From assembly GCA_036523395.1 (NCBI GenBank), contig DATDEH010000043.1, positions 1 to 33,317 of the forward strand: DNA of 33,317 nt, written 5' to 3'. This DNA is from Candidatus Limnocylindria bacterium. GTDB lineage: Bacteria > Chloroflexota > Limnocylindria > P2-11E. The translations under genes were made by a program, and so were the position numbers. The stretch's first letter is position 1, and every line of letters begins with the position of its first letter. Shown in pieces: positions 14,275-26,535 of this stretch. The notes beneath the pieces are model-generated. The model saw nothing but the letters and a program-made list of their open reading frames with translations. It searched no databases and had not been told where the DNA came from.

Positions 14275-15504
14275 ATGCTGAACTGGTTGAGCGTCGACGG
14301 CAAGAAGCTGCTCGTCACGCGAGTCCTTCGAACGTTCGCATACGGGTACCTCACGGTCATTCTCGGCCTCTACCTCGATGCGCTGGGCATGGATCCGACG
14401 GAGATCGGCTTCATCCTCGCTGCCGCGATCGCCGGGTCGGCCCTCATGACGGTGTTCTGGTCGCTCGTCGCCGATCGGATCGGCCGCCGCCGGACCGTTG
14501 CGACGATGGCCGGGCTCATGGCGGTCGGAGGTCTGCTGTTTGCTTTTGGCGGCACCTTCGTGCCCCTCCTGATTGGCGCGTTCACCGGCACGATCAGCGC
14601 GACGAGCTCCGAGGTCGGGATCTTCCAGACGGTCGAGCAGGCGATCCTCCCGCAGACAGCGCCCGACGAGCGCCGCACGTGGCTGTTCGCGATCTACAAC
14701 ACCGTCGCGAACTTCGCTGCGGCCTTCGGCTCGTTTGCCGCGGTGACCGTGGGCCTCTTCGCCTCGCTCGGGCTCCAGGGTGCCGACGCGTACCGGCCGT
14801 TCTTCGTCGTTTATGCCCTCATCGGCCTCATCAACCTCGCGATCTTCGTGACGCTGTCCGACCGAGTCGAGCTCGCGAAGGTCGAGGGCGAGCGGCGCTT
14901 TCTTGGCATCCGCCGCTCGGGCGGGACCGTGGCCAAACTGTCGGCGCTGTTCGGCCTCGACGCGTTCGCCGGCGGCTTCGTCGTGCTTTCGCTCGTGGCG
15001 TTCTGGTTCCACCTGAAGTGGGGCCTATCGCCGGAAGCGCTCGCTTCCGTCTTCTTCTGGGTGAATGTCCTCTCGGGGCTGTCGCTCCTGGCGGCAGGCC
15101 GGCTCGCGCAGCGGATCGGACTGCTGAACACGATGGTCTTCACGCACATCCCATCGAGCGTCCTCCTCCTCCTGGTGCCGCTCATGCCTTCGGCCGGGCT
15201 TGCGGTCGCGGTCTTCCTCGCACGCATGAGCATCTCTCAGATGGACGTGCCGACGCGGCAGTCATACACGATGGCGATCGTCGATCCCGAGGAGCGCACC
15301 GCGACGGCCGGCATCACCAACGTCGCCCGAACGACCGCTGCGGCGATCTCGCCCGCGTTCGTGGGCATGGCGTTCTCTGCCGGGGCACTCGGTCTGCCCT
15401 TCTTCGTCGCCGCCGGGCTGAAGATCCTCTACGACGGCCTCATCTACGCGACGTTCCGTGGGGTTCACCCGCCCGAGGAGACGAGACTTCGTCGGTCGAC
15501 CTAA
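14275..15504 (+). CDS. Major facilitator superfamily transporter
   Basis: A 409-aa inner-membrane permease with about 12 helices. The MFS signature loop between helices 2 and 3 is visible as VADRIGRRRTVATM, after TEIGFILAAAIAGSALMTVFW. A shorter equivalent (AGRLAQRIGLLNTMVF) marks the second half. Substrate unknown. It faces gabT head-to-head with a 6-bp gap, so uptake or export of an amine or amino acid is possible but unproven. ATG 14275 is used; TTG 14284 would also leave helix 1 intact. The last base pairs overlap the stop of the convergent gene (CTAA at 15501-15504). Confidence 0.88.
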   Translation: MLNWLSVDGKKLLVTRVLRTFAYGYLTVILGLYLDALGMDPTEIGFILAAAIAGSALMTVFWSLVADRIGRRRTVATMAGLMAVGGLLFAFGGTFVPLLIGAFTGTISATSSEVGIFQTVEQAILPQTAPDERRTWLFAIYNTVANFAAAFGSFAAVTVGLFASLGLQGADAYRPFFVVYALIGLINLAIFVTLSDRVELAKVEGERRFLGIRRSGGTVAKLSALFGLDAFAGGFVVLSLVAFWFHLKWGLSPEALASVFFWVNVLSGLSLLAAGRLAQRIGLLNTMVFTHIPSSVLLLLVPLMPSAGLAVAVFLARMSISQMDVPTRQSYTMAIVDPEERTATAGITNVARTTAAAISPAFVGMAFSAGALGLPFFVAAGLKILYDGLIYATFRGVHPPEETRLRRST

Positions 15505-16010
15505 GGCTTCCAGGCCCTTCGCGAGACGTGCGCGCCAGTGCTCGTGTCAGGAGCGGCCGGGTACTGCTCCATGCGGTCGTAGAGCCATTCGAACCATTCG
15601 AAAGCCGTCGGAGTGACCGCACGGAACTGACCGATGTATCCGCCGCACTTCCGCCACGTGAGCCGGACCATCCCGCCGATGAGGTCGTCCGCCATGTGCA
15701 GCGGGATCGCGCGCGAGTACACGAGGTAGCCGAGGTTCTCGAACTTCACGAATGTCTCGATGAGCGCCTGCTCGAGCTCGGGCCCGAGCGCGTGGATCGC
15801 CTCCGCCGGCGCGGAATCCGGAAGCTCGAAGATCTTCCGGACCGAGCGAGAGAAGAGCTCAGGCGGCTGCGTGGTCTTCATGAGGGTCAGCGCCGTTTCC
15901 TGGCGCCGCTGACGCACGAAAGCGATGAACTGGTACGCGGCGAAGACGAATCCGCCGACCACCGTGCTCGTCGAGATCAACGCCAACGCGATCTGCAGCT
16001 CGACCGGCAT
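15501..16010 (-). CDS. Membrane-anchored DUF4760-like protein
   Basis: A 169-aa protein with one N-terminal transmembrane helix (about residues 6-29, IALALISTSTVVGGFVFAAYQF) and a helical cytoplasmic domain with conserved-looking aromatic stretches (FVKFENLGYLVYSR, then FEWFEWLYDRME). This is the layout of DUF4760 proteins, whose function is unknown. ATG 16010 is preceded by GGGAGGGA. It is divergent from the alpha/beta hydrolase (33-bp gap) and shares its stop region with the convergent MFS gene (TAA on plus and TAG on minus overlap by 2 bp). Confidence 0.7.
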   Translation of the reverse strand: MPVELQIALALISTSTVVGGFVFAAYQFIAFVRQRRQETALTLMKTTQPPELFSRSVRKIFELPDSAPAEAIHALGPELEQALIETFVKFENLGYLVYSRAIPLHMADDLIGGMVRLTWRKCGGYIGQFRAVTPTAFEWFEWLYDRMEQYPAAPDTSTGAHVSRRAWKP

Positions 16011-16028
16011 CCGTCCCTCCCGCGCTCA

Positions 16029-16034
16029 TAAGAT
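16029..16034 (+). promoter_or_regulatory. -10 box TAAGAT, leaderless start of hydrolase-hutU operon
   Basis: TAAGAT ends 9 nt before ATG 16044, with no ribosome site between them. Confidence 0.5.
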
Positions 16035-16043
16035 GATGCGCCG

Positions 16044-16874
16044 ATGCCGCGAGTCATGGCTGGGGACGTCGAGCTCTACTACGAGTCGCTCGGCGAGGGC
16101 ACGCCGCTGGTGCTTCAGGCCCACGACCACACGCCCTGGTTGTTCGGACAGGCGCCGGTCCTCTCGCAGCGCTATCGGGTCCTGGTCTACGACCGCCGCG
16201 GGACGGGGCGCTCGTCGAGCCCGGAAGGCGACTGGAGCGCCGCGGACCTCGCCGGCGACCTCGTGAGATTCCTGGATGCCCTCGCGATCGAGCGCGCGAT
16301 CGTCGGAGGTTCGTCGCTCGGCGGTGTGATCACCGCGCAGTTCGCCGTCGACCACCCGGAGCGGGCGCTCGCGCTCGTCATCGGTCACACAGTCCCCTAC
16401 CTCGACGACATCGGACGCGCCTGGCTCGAGCGACAGGTGACCGACGCGCGCGCCGGTCATCCGGTCATCGCGCGACAGCCCGCGGACACCGCGGGCGGCA
16501 GCGAGCCGCCAACGACCGATCCCGTCTTCGCCGCGTCGCCGCTCGGACGGATGATCGCGACGACCGGCACCGGCCTCGGCCGCACTCCCGATGACATCGC
16601 GCGAGCCATCGCGGTCCTGCGCGACTGGGATCAGCGGCCCCGAAAAGCCGACCTCGCGAAGATCAAAGTGCCGACGCTCGTCATCGTGGGCGAGCGCGAG
16701 CCGCGCTCGACGATCGAAGGATCGCGCGAATGGGCGTCGTGGATCCCCGGTGCGGAGTTCGTGATCCTGCCCGGCGCGCATCACGCCGCGCCGCGCGAGG
16801 CCGCGCCAGCCTGGAACGCCGCGGTGCAGGGATTCCTCGACCGGCACGGCTTGGGTGGACAATCGACGTCATGA
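16044..16874 (+). CDS. Alpha/beta-hydrolase fold protein
   Basis: A 276-aa cytoplasmic hydrolase. The nucleophile elbow is GGSSLGG, the oxyanion region follows [15 protein letters not shown], and YDRRGTGRS marks the early strand/helix turn. The catalytic His is in [15 protein letters not shown]. The acid position after strand 7 reads VIVGEREP, with Glu where Asp is usual. Substrate unknown; esters, lactones or C-C bonds are all possible. It begins from a likely leaderless promoter and overlaps the urocanase ATG by 4 bp, so it may act on a histidine-derived or urocanate-derived compound, but this is only positional evidence. No HutI-like imidazolonepropionase is present nearby. Confidence 0.88.
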
Positions 16875-18520
16875 CCGTTACGGCGCGCGCCGTCCGCGCC
16901 CCCCGCGGCACCGCGCTGACGTGCCGCGACTGGCCGCAAGAGGCCGCGTTCCGGATGATCCAGAACAACCTCGACCCCGAGGTCGCGGAGCATCCCGACG
17001 AGCTCATCGTGTACGGCGGCACCGGCCGCGCGGCGCGGTCGTGGGAGGCGTTCGACCGCATCCTCTCGACGCTGCGCCGCCTCAAGAACGACGAGACGCT
17101 GCTCGTGCAATCGGGCAAGCCCGTCGGTGTGTTCCGCACGCATGAGTGGGCGCCGCGCGTGCTCATCGCGAACGCGCTCCTCGTGCCGAAGTGGGCGACG
17201 TGGGAGAAGTTCCGCGAGCTCGAGGCAGCGGGCCTGACGATGTACGGGCAGATGACCGCAGGCTCCTGGATCTACATCGGTACACAGGGGATCCTGCAGG
17301 GAACGTACGAGACGTTCGCCGCGGTCGCGCGCAAGCACTTCGGCGGCACGCTCGCCGGCCGACTTGTCGTCACCGCCGGGCTCGGCGGCATGGGTGGCGC
17401 GCAGCCGCTCGCAATCACGATGAACGAAGGTGTCGGTCTCATCGTCGAGGTCGATCACGCGAACGCCGAACGGCGACGCCGGCAGGGCTTCCTCGACGAG
17501 ATCGCGCCGACGCTCGACGACGCGCTGCAGATCGCGCAACGATCGCTGCGCGACCGGACGCCACGCAGCATCGGGCTCGTCGCCAACGCAGCGGACGTGC
17601 TGCCCGAGCTCGCGCGCCGTGGCGTGCGCGTCGACGTCGTCACCGATCAGACCAGCGCACACGATCCGCTGGACGGCTACGTTCCCGCAGGCGTCGAGGA
17701 CCTTGCCGGTCTGCGCGCGCGCGAGCCGCAGAGCTACGTCCGCAGATCGCGCGAGTCGATGGCGCGGCACTGCGAGGCGATCGTTTCGCTGGCGAAGCGC
17801 GGCGCCGTCGCATTCGACTACGGGAACAACCTGCGCGGTGAGGCGAAGGAGGCGGGCTTCGCCGACGCGTTCAGCTATCCCGGCTTCGTCCCCGAGTACA
17901 TCCGTCCGCTGTTCGCGGAAGGCCGCGGGCCGTTCCGTTGGGTCGCGCTCTCGGGCGATACGGCCGACATTCACTGCACCGACCGCCTCGTACTCGAGCT
18001 CTTCCCAGAGAACGAGACGCTCGCGCGGTGGATCCGCCTCGCGCAGGACCGCGTGCCATTCCAGGGCCTCCCGGCGCGCGTGTGCTGGCTCGGGTATGGG
18101 GAGCGCGCGCTGTTCGGGGAGCGCATCGACGAGCTCGTCGCAAGCGGCGAGATCAAGGCGCCGATCGTCATCGGGCGCGACCACCTCGACTCGGGCTCGG
18201 TCGCATCGCCCTTCCGCGAGACCGAGGGAATGAAGGACGGCAGTGACGCGATCGCAGACTGGCCGATCCTGAACGCGCTCGTGAACACAGCGGCGGGTGC
18301 GACGTGGGTGTCGGTGCATCACGGTGGTGGTGTTGGCATCGGCAACTCGATCCACGCAGGGATGGTCGCCGTCGCGGATGGCACCGCGCTGGGCCGCGAG
18401 AAGCTTCGCCGTGTCCTCACGACCGACCCCGGCACGGGTGTGATGCGTCACGCCGACGCCGGGTACGACGAGGCGCTCGACTTCGCCAAGCGCAGCGGGA
18501 TCGACCTGCCGAGCGTCTGA
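16871..18520 (+). CDS. hutU: Urocanate hydratase
   Basis: Converts urocanate to 4-imidazolone-5-propionate, the second step of histidine degradation, using tightly bound NAD+. The 549-aa product has normal family length. Visible blocks: [29 protein letters not shown], the NAD-binding [34 protein letters not shown] and [13 protein letters not shown] with the conserved Cys, then [12 protein letters not shown] and [12 protein letters not shown] 16871 overlaps the hydrolase stop (ATGA). hutH lies 13 kb upstream in a different operon; the later steps are not in the window. The C-terminus ends GIDLPSV. Confidence 0.96.
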
Positions 18521-18930
18521 CATTGGCCAGGCAGGTCAACCGTGAAGAGTTCAAGGCGTACTTCAATGACGCGCTCAACGTCGCCACAGCCCACGCCGAG
18601 AAGCACTTCCGCGTCCGCGTCAACATCCCGAAGCACCAGTCCGTTGAACTACACGGGGCGGGACACGATGGAGGTCGAATCGCTCCCGACGTTGCCGCGG
18701 ACGCGCTCTATCTGGGGCCTGAGCGCTTCTACAAACTCATCGACGTGTTGATCAAGTGGATCGAGGGCGATACCGCGGTGCGTTCGCTGTGTTCACCGGC
18801 TTCGAGCCCTGCCCGTGGGAGGAGACACTCGACCCCGGTGGACTAGGTCCATTCAAGACACAGCTGTCGGCTGACATTCGAGAGCCGCTATGGCACCGAA
18901 TCATTCGTATGCCGAGACGTGGCTAGGTCG

Positions 18931-18999
18931 CGAGGCTCGGCAGTTCGCGGAGAAGTCCCCGATCGATCTGCCGAGCCTCGAGCGATCTGCCGAGCCTCG
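18931..18999. repeat. 13-bp inverted repeat, with one arm duplicated
   Basis: CGAGGCTCGGCAG (18931-18943) is the reverse complement of CTGCCGAGCCTCG at 18968-18980 and again at 18987-18999. It can form a 13-bp stem with a 24-nt or 43-nt loop between two convergent transcription units, so it might act as a bidirectional stop, although no T-run follows. Confidence 0.7.
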
Positions 19000-19001
19000 A
19001 G
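18964..19001. repeat. 19-bp perfect tandem duplication
   Basis: CGATCTGCCGAGCCTCGAG occurs twice with no spacer (18964-18982 and 18983-19001). Because 19 is not a multiple of 3, it breaks the reading frame that would otherwise end with CGA-TGA. Confidence 0.95.
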
Positions 19002-19011
19002 CGATGACGCG

Positions 19012-19500
19012 TTAGGCGATAAGGGTCGCGACGAGCTCCGAGAGGCGCTCGTAGGTCTCGCGTGCGCCGGACTCCATACCAGTCGCGATCACAGCGTCGC
19101 GCTCTTCCTTGGAGTTGAAGACACCGCGATCCCGAAGTTCGGTAACGCCGTCCTTCTCGACGAGCGTGATCTCCACGAACCCGTCTCCCTCCGGCATGTC
19201 CCCGAAGAGGAAGCTGTAGACGAGCTTTTCGGGGGCCACGACCTCGCGGTACGTGCCGTGGAAGTCGACGACTTCGCCGCCGGACGTCTGCGTGATGAAT
19301 TGCCACTTGCCGCCCTTGCGCACGTCCATCTTCTTGACCTCGGTCTTGTCCCGGGCGAAGCCCCACCACTTGGGGATGAGGTCCGGATCCGTGATCGCTT
19401 CCCACACGACCTCGCGCGGTGCTTCGAACTTCTTGGTCATGAGGATCTCTTTATCTGACGGCAGGGTGAGCGTGGTCTCGTACTTTGTCTTAGTGGCCAT
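19012..19500 (-). CDS. SRPBCC (AHSA1/START-like) domain protein
   Basis: A 162-aa protein of the SRPBCC helix-grip fold, AHSA1 branch: ILMTKKFEAPREVVWEAITDPDLIPKWWG, then HGTYREVVAPEKLVYSF and a C-terminal helix with GMESGARETYERLSELV, the usual ending in this group. Such proteins bind hydrophobic ligands in a deep cavity. The specific ligand is unknown. ATG 19500 lies within the end of the upstream arsR-like gene (11-bp overlap); this ArsR plus AHSA1 pair is a common two-gene arrangement in which the regulator controls both. Codon use is a little richer in Lys and AT than its neighbours, but not enough to claim transfer. Confidence 0.9.
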   Translation of the reverse strand: MATKTKYETTLTLPSDKEILMTKKFEAPREVVWEAITDPDLIPKWWGFARDKTEVKKMDVRKGGKWQFITQTSGGEVVDFHGTYREVVAPEKLVYSFLFGDMPEGDGFVEITLVEKDGVTELRDRGVFNSKEERDAVIATGMESGARETYERLSELVATLIA

Positions 19501-19828
19501 GATCTCTCTCCCGCTCTTTCTTAGCCTTCCGCTCGCTGACGAGCTCCTCCAACCGATCCATGCGGTCTGTCATCGAGCGCCTGAACGTCTCGAGCCACGT
19601 GTCGAGCTCATCGAACGGCTCGGACCGCAGCTCATAGATGCGCTGCTGCGCGACCGGGCGCACGTCGACCAGACCGGCGTCGCTGAGCACGCGGAGGTGC
19701 TTCGACACTTGCGGTTGACGTAGCCGGAGGCGCTTGGCGATCTCCCCCACCGGGCGCGGCCGGTCGCGAAGGAGCTCGACGATGCGCAGGCGATTCGGTT
19801 CTGCGAGGGCTGTCAGCGTGGCGTTCAC
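19490..19828 (-). CDS. ArsR-family winged-helix repressor
   Basis: A 112-aa DNA-binding protein. The winged helix spans residues about 5-75: LAEPNRLRIVELL, then recognition helix RLRQPQVSKHLRVLSDAGLV and wing VAQQRIYELR. No metal-binding Cys cluster (ELCVC-type) is present, so it is not a classical arsenic or metal sensor. It belongs with the metal-free ArsR proteins that pair with SRPBCC genes. The C-terminal helix (LDTWLETFRRSMTDRMDRLEEL) would dimerise. GTG 19828 is leaderless by promoter geometry, with TTGACA and TATGTT upstream and dyads overlapping them, which fits self-repression. It overlaps the SRPBCC gene by 11 bp. Confidence 0.92.
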   Translation of the reverse strand: MNATLTALAEPNRLRIVELLRDRPRPVGEIAKRLRLRQPQVSKHLRVLSDAGLVDVRPVAQQRIYELRSEPFDELDTWLETFRRSMTDRMDRLEELVSERKAKKERERDHGH

Positions 19829-19834
19829 ACGCCG

Positions 19835-19873
19835 AACATACCTCTAGAGGAATATACCTGTCAAGGCATATTC
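19835..19873 (-). promoter_or_regulatory. arsR-like promoter with overlapping dyad operators
   Basis: On the minus strand TTGACA (19864-19859) and TATGTT (19840-19835) are 18 bp apart, and TATGTT ends 6 nt before GTG 19828. A perfect palindrome CCTCTAGAGG (19841-19850) fills the spacer. A 24-bp imperfect dyad (19850-19873, arms GAATATACC and GGCATATTC) covers the -35. These are good candidate sites for the ArsR product itself. The promoter overlaps the end of the CDGSH gene. Confidence 0.7.
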
Positions 19874-20112
19874 AAGAACTGATACCTAGCGCTCGCTGGC
19901 GGGCTCGGGAGGAAGGATGGTCGCGACACGAAGTCGACTCGCCGGTGCGTGTCGTCGCAGTAGGGCTTGGTGCCCGAATGGCCGCAGCGGCAGAGTTTCA
20001 CCGTGCGTCCCTCGAGGACGTGGATCTCGTTGCCGTCGGCATCGGCGATCGTGATCGGGCCGGTCACGATGTAGGGACCGTTCGGCTCCATCCGGATGGA
20101 AGGACCGGGCAT
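19861..20112 (-). CDS. CDGSH-type iron-sulfur domain protein
   Basis: An 83-aa protein with one CDGSH zinc-finger-like motif that binds a labile [2Fe-2S] cluster through three Cys and one His: Cys41, Cys43, Cys52 and His56 in LCRCGHSGTKPYCDDTH. The usual C-D-G-S-H core reads C-D-D-T-H here, but the ligands are kept. The N-terminal part (PYIVTGPITIADADGNEI) matches the beta-rich lead-in of bacterial CDGSH proteins. The C-terminal 25 residues are low in conservation. ATG 20112 shares one base with the stop of the dUTPase-like gene (TGATG); GTG 20115 is possible. Probable redox or cluster-transfer role; partner unknown. Confidence 0.9.
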   Translation of the reverse strand: MPGPSIRMEPNGPYIVTGPITIADADGNEIHVLEGRTVKLCRCGHSGTKPYCDDTHRRVDFVSRPSFLPSPPASARYQFLNMP

Positions 20113-20615
20113 CACGCGTTCTCCCCGTGGTAGCGGCCCTTGTATCCCTCACCGGCCGGCGACGAGAGACGGAAGAACACGAGCTGCAGAACGCGCGCCC
20201 CACGCTGAAGCCGGTAGCCGCGCGCGTTCAGGACCGAGAGGAGACCCTCGCCGCGTCCGGAATACCCGGCGTCCCACACCGCGGCGTGGATCGCGACGCC
20301 GGATCGGAGGAGCGTCGAGCGCGGCCGCGCGAGAGCCATGATGTCGGTCGGCAGATTCACCTTCTCCTGATAGGTGATGACGTAGGCACCGCGGTGCAGG
20401 TCCCACCAGCCGTCCTTGTCGGCCTGCACGTCCTCCCGAGCGGCGGGCTCGCGCACGTTGTCGGCCTCGCCGAGGAGGCCCGGTGACGTCAGCCGCTGGA
20501 CGCGGTCCACGCGAAGATCGATGCCGTTGGGCTGCACCTGCAGATCGAGCCCCTCGACGAGCGGAGGATCCGCCGCGAGCGCCGCGCGCAGCTCTTCACG
20601 CGATAGGACGGACAC
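20112..20615 (-). CDS. dCTP deaminase/dUTPase-superfamily protein, dUTPase-like
   Basis: A 167-aa trimeric nucleotidohydrolase-type protein of the Dcd/Dut fold: LQVQPNGIDLRVDRV near the N-terminus, the phosphate-binding RPRSTLLRSGV block, AVWDAGYSGRGEGLL around the catalytic Asp, and RGARVLQLVFFRL. In true dCTP deaminases a Glu needed for deamination follows in V-L-E-F; here the matching place reads LLSVLN with no Glu. The protein most resembles archaeal-style dUTPases of this superfamily, so dUTP hydrolysis is more likely than deamination. GTG 20615 is leaderless by promoter geometry (TAAACT 6 nt upstream). It is co-transcribed with the CDGSH gene and divergent from the thioesterase. Confidence 0.85.
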   Translation of the reverse strand: MSVLSREELRAALAADPPLVEGLDLQVQPNGIDLRVDRVQRLTSPGLLGEADNVREPAAREDVQADKDGWWDLHRGAYVITYQEKVNLPTDIMALARPRSTLLRSGVAIHAAVWDAGYSGRGEGLLSVLNARGYRLQRGARVLQLVFFRLSSPAGEGYKGRYHGENA

Positions 20616-20621
20616 GCCTGG

Positions 20622-20627
20622 AGTTTA
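20622..20627 (-). promoter_or_regulatory. -10 box TAAACT for the dUTPase-like gene
   Basis: Minus-strand TAAACT (20627-20622) ends 6 nt before GTG 20615. No ribosome site is present, so the mRNA is probably leaderless. Confidence 0.55.
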
Positions 20628-20643
20628 GGTGCGCGCGACTCTC

Positions 20644-20649
20644 TAGGAT
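20644..20649 (+). promoter_or_regulatory. -10 box TAGGAT for the thioesterase gene
   Basis: TAGGAT ends 8 nt before ATG 20658 with no ribosome site, in the 42-bp divergent gap shared with the dUTPase-like promoter. Confidence 0.55.
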
Positions 20650-20657
20650 TCGCTCGC

Positions 20658-21131
20658 ATGCCTGAACCGAAGCCAGTCTCGGCCTCGAAGACGATCATGT
20701 CGCGCACGATGCTGCCGTCCGACGCGAACCCGTACGGGAACGTGCACGGCGGCGAGATCATGAAGCTGATCGACGCCTGCGCCGGCGCCGCGGCGACGCG
20801 GCATGCACGCGCGCGGGTCGTCACGGCGCGCATCGACGAGCTCTCATTCCTGGCGCCCGTGTATGTCGGTCATCTCGTCACGGCGTCGGCCTCCGTGAAC
20901 CACGTCGGCCGCTCGAGCATGGAGGTCGGCGTGCGCGTCGACTCCGAGGACCTGCTGACCGGGAAGGCCGCCCACGTCGCGTCCGCCTATCTCGTGTTCG
21001 TCTCCACCGACGAGCACGGCCGGCCGGTCGCGCTTCCTCCCCTGCTCGCCGAGACGGACGACGAGCGCCGGCGAATGAGGGCCGCCGAGGATCGCCGCGC
21101 GCGCCGGCTGCAGCGGCCGCGCACCTCCTAG
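20658..21131 (+). CDS. Hotdog-fold acyl-CoA thioesterase
   Basis: A 157-aa thioesterase of the YciA/BFIT hotdog family that hydrolyses acyl-CoA. The signature is MLPSDANPYGNVHGGEIMKLIDACAG, with the catalytic acidic residue in the N-P-x-G-N-x-H-G-G-x-I-M-x-x-I-D block, then FLAPVYVGHLVTASASVNHVGRSSMEVGV. The C-terminus is a charged Arg-rich helix. The chain length acted on cannot be told. ATG 20658 fits both the family start and a leaderless mRNA. The TAXI transporter gene follows 26 bp later with its own ribosome site and a possible -10 (TAGACT) on the thioesterase stop codon. Confidence 0.92.
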   Translation: MPEPKPVSASKTIMSRTMLPSDANPYGNVHGGEIMKLIDACAGAAATRHARARVVTARIDELSFLAPVYVGHLVTASASVNHVGRSSMEVGVRVDSEDLLTGKAAHVASAYLVFVSTDEHGRPVALPPLLAETDDERRRMRAAEDRRARRLQRPRTS

Positions 21132-21157
21132 ACTGCCGCGCACTGGGAGGCTGAGAG

Positions 21158-22658: not shown

Positions 22659-24685
22659 GCGAGATCGTCGTCCGGCCGGACTTTGAGGCGGTCGTCAGCG
22701 ACGAGAAGAACCGCGAGATCATCGAGGAGTTCGAGAGCGAAGCAAAGACCCGCTCGCTGACCGGCTGGTGGGCGCGCGTCGCGACCGCGCTCTCCGTCGC
22801 GACGACCCTCTTCGCCCTCTATTACGCGGCGGCCGGCGTCGAGATCCCATTCACGAGCGTGGTCCTTGTGCCCACCATCAGCGTCTTCGGCGAGACGATC
22901 ACGACGAAGCAGATCTACGAGATGCTGTTTCTCGCCGCGGTCCTGACCCTCACCTTCATCCTTTACCCCGCCCACCATCGCTTCCGCGAGACCATCAACC
23001 TGATCCTCGATGTGATCCCGGCCATCGCATCGGTCGCGATCGCGTTGTACGTACTGCTCAACTTCGAGCAGGTGATCTACCGGGCGAACAGCCCGACGCC
23101 GACAGACTTCGCGTTCGGAGTCGTCGCGATCGCCGTGGTGCTCGAGGCGGCGCGTCGCACGATCGGATGGCACCTGCCGGTGCTTGGCCTTATTGCGATC
23201 GCGTACGCGTATTTCGCCGACTTCATGCCCGGTCCGTTCCGCGGCCCGCCAAAGAATCTCGACGACATCGTCGCCAACCAGTACCTCGGCACGGAAGGGA
23301 TGCTCGGGCAGCCGCTGCTCGTCGCGGCAACGTTCATCATCCTGTTCACGATCTACGGCGCGATCCTCGACTACACCGGCGCCGGCAAGTTCTACGTCGA
23401 TCTCGCGTTCGCGCTGACGGGCCGCAAGCCGACCGGCGCGGCGCGCACTGTGACCGTCGCGTCATTCCTCCTCGGCACCGTGTCGGGATCGGGCGTCGCG
23501 ACGACCGTCACGCTCGGGGCGATCGCGTACCCGATGCTGAAGAAGGCCGGGCACGACCGCGAGTCATCCGGAGCGATCCTGTCCGCCGGAGGCATCGGTG
23601 CGGTGATCTCGCCGCCGGTCCTCGGTCCGGCCGCGTTCATCATGGCCGAGCTCCTGCGCATCAGCTACCTCGACATCGTGATCATGGCCGTGATGCCGAC
23701 GATCCTCTTCTACCTCGGCATCCTGCTCATGATCGAGATCGATGCGCGGCGGCTGCGCGCGCAGCCCATCGTTCTCGATGCGCCCGGCTTCTGGTGGCTG
23801 ACGAAGCGCTACTGGTACCAGTACACGTCGCTCTTCGCGATCATCGTGTTCCTCCTCCTCGGATTCAGCACGATCACCGCGATCTTCTGGTCGATCCTCC
23901 TCGCGATCGTCGTGCCGTACCTCCGCAAGGAGACCTCGCTCACGCCGCGCAAGCTCGTCGCGGCGCTGTCCGCCGGCACCCGTCAGGTGCTGTCGGTCGC
24001 CGCGACGACGGCGGTCGCGGGCATCGCGGTCGGCGTCCTTCTTCAGACCGGGCTCGGCCTGAAGATCTCGAGCCTCATCCTCACGCTCGGCGCGGGGAAC
24101 CTCGTGCTCACGCTCGTGATCGCCGGCATCGTGCTGTGGGTGCTCGGCCTGTCGCTGCCGATCACGGCGACCTACCTCGTCGCGGTGCCGACCGTCATCC
24201 CCGCCCTGGTGACCCTCGGCGTGCCGCCGCCGGCCGCGCACATGTTCGTCTTCTATTACGCAGTCCTGAGCGAGGTGTCGCCGCCGGTCGCGCTGTCCCC
24301 ATTCGCGGCGGCCGCGATCACCGGCGGGAACCCGTACAAGACGATGATGCTGACCTGGAAGTACGCGCTCCCGTGCTTCCTCGTGCCGTTCATGTTCACG
24401 CAGCCGGACGGCCTCGCGCTCCTATGGCGCGGCGCGTCGGTGCCGGAGGCGGTCATCGCGTCGGTCTCCGCGATCATCGGCATCGTCGCCGTGGTGAGTG
24501 GCGTGGGCGGATACCTCTTCCGGCCGACGACGTGGCCGGAGCGCGGGCTGCTCGTCGGCGCCGGCCTTCTGCTCCTCGCGCCCGGCGCGCTGCAAGACGC
24601 CACAGGGCTTGCGCTTTTCGCGCTGGCCGTCGGCCTTCAGCTCGCGCGACGCGCGCGCGAGCGGACACGAGCCGCGCCGGCCTAG
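22655..24685 (+). CDS. TRAP transporter fused permease (DctQ-DctM type)
   Basis: A 676-aa inner-membrane permease joining the small DctQ-like part (about residues 35-200, four helices) and the large DctM-like part (about 210-610, GRKPTGAARTVTVASFLLGTVSGSGVATTVTLGAIAYPMLKK region). This is the standard 4TM-12TM fusion of TAXI systems. It imports the ligand delivered by the binding lipoprotein using an ion gradient. The LSAGGIGAVISPPVLGPAAF block and the second pseudo-symmetric P-I-T-A-T-Y segment are intact. The C-terminus adds one or two helices and an Arg-rich end. GTG 22655 overlaps the DUF1850 stop. Its TAG shares CTAG (24682-24685) with the stop of the convergent peptidase gene. Confidence 0.95.
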   Translation: MSEIVVRPDFEAVVSDEKNREIIEEFESEAKTRSLTGWWARVATALSVATTLFALYYAAAGVEIPFTSVVLVPTISVFGETITTKQIYEMLFLAAVLTLTFILYPAHHRFRETINLILDVIPAIASVAIALYVLLNFEQVIYRANSPTPTDFAFGVVAIAVVLEAARRTIGWHLPVLGLIAIAYAYFADFMPGPFRGPPKNLDDIVANQYLGTEGMLGQPLLVAATFIILFTIYGAILDYTGAGKFYVDLAFALTGRKPTGAARTVTVASFLLGTVSGSGVATTVTLGAIAYPMLKKAGHDRESSGAILSAGGIGAVISPPVLGPAAFIMAELLRISYLDIVIMAVMPTILFYLGILLMIEIDARRLRAQPIVLDAPGFWWLTKRYWYQYTSLFAIIVFLLLGFSTITAIFWSILLAIVVPYLRKETSLTPRKLVAALSAGTRQVLSVAATTAVAGIAVGVLLQTGLGLKISSLILTLGAGNLVLTLVIAGIVLWVLGLSLPITATYLVAVPTVIPALVTLGVPPPAAHMFVFYYAVLSEVSPPVALSPFAAAAITGGNPYKTMMLTWKYALPCFLVPFMFTQPDGLALLWRGASVPEAVIASVSAIIGIVAVVSGVGGYLFRPTTWPERGLLVGAGLLLLAPGALQDATGLALFALAVGLQLARRARERTRAAPA

Positions 24686-26535
24686 AGCACGCGCCCCAGG
24701 TAGTCGGCCAGGATGTTGAAGGTCCGGATCTTCTGAGCGATGTCCGTGCTGCCGTGACCCTCGTCGCTGAGCTCGACGTACTCGAAATCCTCGCCCTCTT
24801 TGCGGCCGAGCTCGAGCAGCCGGTCACGGAAGATGCGCGACTGGTCGACCGGGCAGCGCGGATCGTTGACGCCGTGGACCATCAACAGCTTGGCACGCAG
24901 CTTGTCGGCGAACTCGATCGCGCTGCGATCGCGCCACAGCGCACGATCCTTCTCGGGATCGCCCATCTGCTCGCGGAAGTAGTACTTGAAGTGCTCCATG
25001 CTCTTTTCGTAGAGCCGGTGCAGGTCGCTGACGCCGACCCACGCGACCGCGGCGCGCCAGACGTCCGGCTTCTTCGTCGCGGCGATGAAGGCCATGAACC
25101 CGCCGTAGCTCCCGCCGAAGACGACGAGGCGGTCGGGGTCGACGTACGGCAGCGTCTTCAGGTAGTCGGCGGCCGCCGCAACGTCTTCGAGGTCCGCGCC
25201 GCCCCAGTCCTTGATCGCGGCGTCGCGGTAGTCGACACCGTATCCCGTGCTCCCGCGGATGTTCGGTTCGATGACGACGAGCCCGCGGTCCGCGAGGAAC
25301 TGCGCGAACGGGTCGAAGCCGCGGAACCACTGTCCCGTCGGACCGCCATGCACGTGCACGATCGCCGGCAGGCGCTCGCCCGAGGCGATGTCGCGCGGCG
25401 CGTACAGGAGTGCCGGGATCTTTTTTCCGTCGAACGTCTTGTAGTAGACGTGCTTTGCCTCGACGAACACCGACCGGTCGATCGTCCCGTATTCCGCGGG
25501 GAGCAAGGTCTCGTACGTGTCGGTGGCGAGGTCGTACGACACGAGGCTGGCGCGCGTGACGTCGGAGCTGAAGGTCACGAGCAGCTTGCGGTCCGCGTCG
25601 AAGAACGACGCGCCGACCGCGAAGCCGTCGGGGAGCGTGAGCTCGTGCGCCGCGCCGGTCTCGACGTCGTAGACGATCGGACGCACCGACGACTCGAAGT
25701 TACGGATCGCGGCGAGAAGCCGGCCGTCCTTCGAGAAGCGGATCGCGTGCTCCTCGACATTGTCCTTCCCGAGCCAGCGGACCTGACCGGTCCCGATGTC
25801 GAGAATGCCCGCGCGGTTCTGGCCGGAGGCGTCGCTCGTCACCGCGAGACGCTTCCCGTCCGGATGCCAATCGGCGATCGTGTCCTTCGAGCCCTTCTTG
25901 ACGGAAAGGACCTTGCGTGCCCCGGTGCCGTCGGCGTTCACGACATATGAGTCGGCGTTCTTGAGATCGGCGACGTCCTCGTTCGTCGCGTACGCGATGA
26001 GCGTCCCGTCCGGGCTCCACTGGCCGCCGAATACCGGGAAGGCGTAGCTGGTCAGCGGTGCGTAGTCCGTTCCGTCGGCGCGCATCTTCCAGAGGTTGAG
26101 CTGACCGGGGCGATCGGGAGCGGACGGGTGTCGCTTGTTCGTGAGGACGGTGAGCCACTTGTCGTCCGGACTGAACTGTCCGGCGTACTCCTGGGCCGTC
26201 GGATCGTTCGTGAGCTGTGTCACCTGACCGGTCGCAACGTCGATGCGGTAGAGGTCGTGCTGCTCGGTCCCACCGGCGTCCTTCGCGAACACGATGCTGC
26301 GGTCGGCCCGGTCCCAGGCGAATCCGGCACGCAGCGCGCGCGGCACCTCACCGTGGCTGATCTGCCGCGTCTCCCGCGTCGCGAGATCCATGACGTGGAG
26401 CTCCATCTGGCCGGTCTTGTCCCAGTAGAAGGCGACGCGGTCGCCCTTCCACGACACGGCCGGTAGGTAGAACGACGGTAGTCGGCAGAGCTCGTCGAGC
26501 GGGATGCGCGGCTGTCGGCGTGTGGCGATGGCCAT
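24682..26535 (-). CDS. Prolyl oligopeptidase-family (S9) serine peptidase
   Basis: A 617-aa S9-type peptidase. Residues about 20-355 are a beta-propeller made of TolB/WD40-like blades (FSPDDKWLTV, WSPDGTLIAY, WHPDGKRLAV). Residues about 375-617 form the alpha/beta-hydrolase domain: HVHGGPTGQW (oxyanion loop), Ser476 in VVFGGSYGGFM, Asp558 in MVHGVNDPRCPV and His594 in DEGHGSTD. No signal peptide, so probably cytoplasmic. It resembles acylaminoacyl-peptidase and dipeptidyl-peptidase-like members; substrates are short peptides. ATG 26535 is used since GGGGAGG lies 6 nt upstream; a longer frame to 26814 is not family sequence. It follows the GNAT gene by 68 bp. Confidence 0.93.
   Translation of the reverse strand: MAIATRRQPRIPLDELCRLPSFYLPAVSWKGDRVAFYWDKTGQMELHVMDLATRETRQISHGEVPRALRAGFAWDRADRSIVFAKDAGGTEQHDLYRIDVATGQVTQLTNDPTAQEYAGQFSPDDKWLTVLTNKRHPSAPDRPGQLNLWKMRADGTDYAPLTSYAFPVFGGQWSPDGTLIAYATNEDVADLKNADSYVVNADGTGARKVLSVKKGSKDTIADWHPDGKRLAVTSDASGQNRAGILDIGTGQVRWLGKDNVEEHAIRFSKDGRLLAAIRNFESSVRPIVYDVETGAAHELTLPDGFAVGASFFDADRKLLVTFSSDVTRASLVSYDLATDTYETLLPAEYGTIDRSVFVEAKHVYYKTFDGKKIPALLYAPRDIASGERLPAIVHVHGGPTGQWFRGFDPFAQFLADRGLVVIEPNIRGSTGYGVDYRDAAIKDWGGADLEDVAAAADYLKTLPYVDPDRLVVFGGSYGGFMAFIAATKKPDVWRAAVAWVGVSDLHRLYEKSMEHFKYYFREQMGDPEKDRALWRDRSAIEFADKLRAKLLMVHGVNDPRCPVDQSRIFRDRLLELGRKEGEDFEYVELSDEGHGSTDIAQKIRTFNILADYLGRVL

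Follow-up and report, generated by a model that had tools for sequence, protein, structure and literature searches.

The window (the whole stretch of DNA analysed, 33,317 nucleotides) very probably comes from an uncultured member of Chloroflexota. The urocanase gene hutU lies at 16730-18520 on the plus strand and matches Pfam Urocanase_N, Urocanase and Urocanase_C with E-values of 8.6e-61 to 7.8e-91. It is an open frame carrying all three domains and what is taken here to be the newer of two types of 3' end (18467-18520, plus strand; 17 residues and a stop), and 16730 may be upstream of its true start. hutU was found at a single place in the genome, with GC contents of 0.71, 0.49 and 0.88 at codon positions 1, 2 and 3. 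Convergent to it is an SRPBCC/AHSA1-like gene (19012-19500, minus strand; Pfam AHSA1, E 6e-26), which is 84% identical in the congeners G002 and G004 and is the right-hand neighbour of the locus in all three genomes. An ArsR-type regulator (19490-19828, minus strand; NCBIfam HTH_metalloreg, E 1e-23) adjoins it. Antisense to nearly all of hutU runs a 580-aa open frame starting with ATG (16781-18523, minus strand), and a 1060-aa open frame at 22768-25950 (plus strand) matches nothing in Pfam at E 1e-6; both are probably shadow ORFs of high-GC DNA.

The DNA between hutU and the SRPBCC gene had been described in the original prediction as one gene broken many times. It was found to be composite, made up of an apparently frame-broken orphan gene, here called X (18523 to about 18926, plus strand), and a second hutU 3' end that is cut off from its gene and stands just before the SRPBCC gene (18931-19007, plus strand; EARQFAEKSPIDLPSLER up to a stop at 19005-19007). 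The two hutU ends are separated by some 410 bp for which the relatives searched offer no counterpart. Over 18300-19200, no sigma-70-like promoter was found, and the single terminator-like site (19084-19101) lies within the SRPBCC gene.

Two hutU 3' ends of different type

The loci downstream of hutU were compared across relatives, as the original prediction had proposed. A hutU match (E <= 1e-50) was present in 22 of 28 family genomes, and the 3' ends of 20 of these were compared; G005 and G023 were left out because their matches stop short of the gene end. In G004, hutU terminates in YDEARQFADKSAIDLPSLER and a stop, the convergent SRPBCC match starts 8 bases later, and the extra DNA seen in the window is absent. 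The real end of hutU in G004 corresponds to the detached end of the window. Alignment of the window with the G004 contig gave blocks that include 15500-18517 and 18931-19886, and a 49-base stretch at the end of the G004 hutU is covered by both of these; the window therefore contains two such ends.

The two ends are of different types. The stretch 18931-19007 is identical to the G004 hutU end at 52 of 56 aligned bases, a match that none of 1000 shuffles equalled. Over 14 codons, the detached end is closest to G004 among the 20 hutU ends (38/42 bases; the next best has 28/42), and at the protein level it shares 12 of 14 residues with the G004 C-terminus, against at most 9 of 14 with any of the other 19 ends. 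As a background control, the best unrelated 14-mer among 66,546 six-frame window positions reached 8 against any of the 20 ends. The attached end, compared over the same 14 codons with 19 relatives, is closest to G002 (38/42 bases), followed by G022 (35/42), while G004 has 28/42. The detached end is also similar to the window's own attached end (2 of 1000 shuffles were as good), with 27 of 42 bases shared. A fresh local duplication of the hutU end within this genome was discarded, since the two ends share so few bases and each suits a different relative better.

Three of the four differences between the detached end and G004 fall at third codon positions. The third positions of hutU agree with those of G004 at only 71%, and so few differences would be expected at that rate with P ~5e-5, while four differences in 56 bases at the overall hutU rate have P 0.19. 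Given that third-position rate, the small number of differences suggests that the detached end was probably coding until recently. It would be the older of the two hutU ends in this genome; the attached type resembles the rest of the family more and, judged by that resemblance, could be the older one.

The 19-bp tandem duplication is perfect, as had been claimed: 18964-18982 equals 18983-19001 exactly, on the plus strand. It had the highest score of the 31 Tandem Repeats Finder (TRF) rows for the window (85; the next was 61), and G004 has one copy. The original prediction regarded it as disrupting a clean L-E-R-stop ending of the broken gene. The duplication does lie within that ending, but the ending is the other C-terminus of hutU.

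The orphan gene X

The frame of 18523 is open to 18846, and the frame of 18756 is open to a stop at 18924-18926. Codon scores were computed in 60-base windows after training on ten ORFs of the window (eight with Pfam matches, the SRPBCC gene and the ArsR gene; hutU was excluded). A separate scoring, with a training set that contained hutU as well as a probable shadow ORF of the MFS gene, gave the same picture. The frame of 18523 scored +8.6 to +15.6 over 18520-18639 and +12.1 to +14.9 over 18700-18789. Between these, at 18640-18699, the third (next) frame scored +5.1 and the frame of 18523 scored -7.5. The frame of 18756 reached only -3.0 to +0.8 over 18760-18909, and the frame of 18935, in the region of the detached hutU end, scored +5.9 and +5.6 over 18910-18999. 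The first part of X has GC contents of 0.67/0.36/0.79 at codon positions 1/2/3, and the second part 0.65/0.54/0.63.

These scores agree with the earlier description of protein-like stretches in successive frames, but the stretches do not all belong to one gene. The last apparent change of frame is the border between X and the detached hutU end and not a frameshift. The frame changes proper would then belong to X. By its codon scores, X seems to change frame at least once, near 18780, if its two parts are one gene, the second part scoring weakly; a brief excursion to the third frame by a pair of changes near 18640-18700 is possible. A programmed frameshift was set aside, as no A- or T-rich slippery run was seen by eye near 18775-18790. 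X is likely a pseudogene in decay. The earlier suggestion of a recent pseudogene or a sequence-quality problem thus holds as far as a likely pseudogene X is concerned and not for the whole stretch taken as one gene; a sequence-quality problem may lie behind the frame change in X or the 19-bp duplication.

Homologues of X were sought with several parts of it. No convincing match was obtained in Pfam, NCBIfam, PHROGs or PADLOC, and no orthologue of the 107-aa frame (18523-18846) came up in the searches made. An 84-aa piece found only itself in 61 genomes and nothing in the collections of genome contigs, plasmids, viral contigs and phages. Among 400 genomes of the phylum, 46 gave a match to this piece at E <= 0.1, including itself, with a next best E-value of 0.002. 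Nineteen loci from other genomes were fetched. Tblastn produced alignments for all but L009 and L018, and those at the 17 inspected loci were short and scattered and were taken as chance; the most X-like, L006, has a 353-aa ORF facing it on the opposite strand. A 118-aa read-through version of X had one plasmid match (E 0.08), which was rejected as it lies opposite a 982-aa ORF. In 177 genomes of the class, the read-through version matched two, its own and G003 (4.6e-4); the latter match was rejected for an internal stop and a position opposite a 343-aa ORF. It matched none of 6, 396 and 396 genomes of other groups, and a blank result of this kind, with no known match, shows nothing. Against the PDB by sequence, the 84-aa piece had a best E-value of 0.042 and the read-through version had no match. 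Single-sequence structure prediction for the 107-aa frame gave a mean pLDDT of 52.8 and a pTM of 0.36, too poor for a fold search.

The same slot in related genomes

An SRPBCC match within 1.5 kb downstream of hutU was present in 4 of the 20 loci (the window genome, referred to as G000, and G002, G004 and G006). The adjacency of the two genes is patchy, since the other 16 loci have no SRPBCC match within about 1.5 kb. In G006, from another genus of the family, the match begins 33 bases after the hutU stop (locus L075).

In G002, which belongs to the same genus as the window genome, hutU and the SRPBCC gene are separated by another insert, a SET-domain gene of 188 aa (L074:516-1082; Pfam E 1.8e-13). 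X has no similarity to this insert (990 of 1000 shuffles were as good), and no displaced hutU end was found between the SET gene and the SRPBCC gene of G002, where the score obtained was reached by 282 of 1000 shuffles. Relatives of the SET-domain gene occur in 8 of 60 other genomes searched. Seven of the eight are on a different contig from the hutU of their genome, and the eighth genome showed no hutU. The relatives in G003 (L166, G003:C105:4106-4630) and G016 have two and one TGA stops, respectively, inside the matched stretch, so these two may be pseudogenes.

Over 20115-21150, G002 and G004 are 94.2% identical to each other and 84.5 and 85.4% identical to the window genome, and quartet sites there (40 v 10 v 3) place G002 and G004 as sisters with G000 outside. 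The closeness of G002 and G004 vanishes in seven comparison windows covering 17500-20033, with a mean excess of 0.4 points compared with 7.1 in the other 27 (P 0.0007), for a tract that was picked after seeing the data and with 23284-24283 also lacking the G002-G004 signal. This loss of closeness is suggestive and would fit an exchange of the hutU segment.

Proposed history and alternatives

Taken together, the arrangement is probably a recombination scar at the 3' end of hutU, where a new end and X were gained and the old end was displaced downstream. The ancestor would have had a hutU with the G004-type ending directly before the convergent SRPBCC gene. Incoming DNA from a relative, consisting of another hutU 3' end followed by X, would have recombined into hutU so that the new end was fused to the body of the gene and the urocanase was kept whole. 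Downstream of X, the old end (roughly 18 terminal codons plus the stop) would have been left behind. The right-hand join, within or after X, would have been non-homologous; a circular intermediate, as proposed for rhs genes, is a possible alternative route. Later events would have been one or more frame changes in X and the 19-bp duplication in the old end. A crossover point within hutU could not be located; the new end resembles the hutU end of G002. Neither a donor nor a working X was found in the collections searched. Against this history as proposed, the informative arrangements come from three genomes only, and G002 showed no sign of a displaced end. With G002 and G004 as sisters and G000 outside, the G004-type and G002-type ends must also have moved or been lost at least one more time.

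The species order, ((G002,G004),G000), speaks for an alternative in which the ancestor of all three genomes already had hutU, X and the detached end, G004 then lost the middle part, fusing its hutU to the downstream end, and G002 swapped that same part for the SET gene. The family-like appearance of the attached end points the same way. Removal of 18475-18936 from the window would also give the G004 arrangement except for the 19-bp duplication, with CGAGGC at both places. We regard such a deletion as unlikely, though not negligible: an earlier displacement is still required to create the detached end, and the 4 differences in 56 bases from G004, mostly at third positions, fit poorly with long decay as non-coding DNA. 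An artefact is considerably less likely again. The genome is a 3.0-Mb draft in 128 contigs, of which the window is contig 43, and two strain variants merged in metagenome assembly could look like two alleles of a gene end side by side. The hutU copies, however, share only that 6-base exact stretch (CGAGGC) where the detached copy starts, which we judge too short for a usual assembler, and no counterpart of X was seen at the locus of either G004 or G002. Local base errors would not account for two different hutU ends. The reading with the least to recommend it, which we consider very improbable, is a single short gene that several frame changes and a duplication have recently disrupted. Coding-like stretches in consecutive frames and the perfect duplication are what it would predict, but the final part is a 3' end of hutU and not of X, G004 contradicts it, and the open frame over 18760-18909 has scores around zero or negative.

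Relation to known displacement systems

The recombination scar proposed here has parallels in known systems. In rhs genes, as described by Jackson et al. (2009, PMC2935791), the body of the gene is kept, insertion of outside DNA supplies a new 3' end, and the old 3' end is shunted downstream, silent and undeleted; a circular intermediate is proposed there. The hutU locus is alike in having the same gene body with different 3' ends in related genomes (G000 and G002 versus G004), and in the presence of a second end, detached and downstream of the attached one (18931-19007, 52/56 bases shared with G004). The process is alike and the gene family is not, the gene here being a urocanase by Pfam. The rhs loci, in that account, have large exchangeable tips and often strings of displaced ones, whereas at the hutU locus the C-terminus is short and a single detached end is present.

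Homology-facilitated illegitimate recombination, as set out in PMC3240628, has one homologous and one non-homologous side, generally with a deletion of similar size and mostly with 3-10 bp of microhomology. The hutU locus would share the one homologous side (hutU) and the non-homologous other side; unlike in that account, no recipient DNA seems to have been lost: the G004-type end is still in place, and so is the SRPBCC border. At Vibrio type VI secretion system (T6SS) effector loci, according to PMC5361080, effector displacement leaves orphan immunity genes behind, with homology-facilitated illegitimate recombination as one suggested mechanism and a shift back of the effector gene 3' end as one proposed step. 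There, as would be the case at hutU, the arriving module is anchored in conserved sequence and pushes old parts downstream. The products of such modules are effectors and immunity proteins, a role not seen at the hutU locus. The type of event is thus known, and the case of a urocanase gene in this group is, as far as we know, a new example; the literature search could not show that hutU scars are unreported.

A broader idea, which we consider unlikely, is that small cassettes repeatedly dock at the hutU 3' end in this Chloroflexota group, bringing their own hutU ending and a cargo, which would be X in the window and the SET-domain gene in G002. Such cassettes would mend the gene on entry while swapping the urocanase C-terminus, the old end could stay behind, and they would resemble miniature islands without an integrase. 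For the recombination scar itself, the locus indicates that displacement of 3' ends, as in rhs genes and T6SS effector loci, can scar a catabolic housekeeping gene in a readable way, here in an uncultured bacterium. What looks like a much-broken gene next to an intact one may be the cast-off end of the latter, and ORF calling in single genomes is likely to miss such cases.
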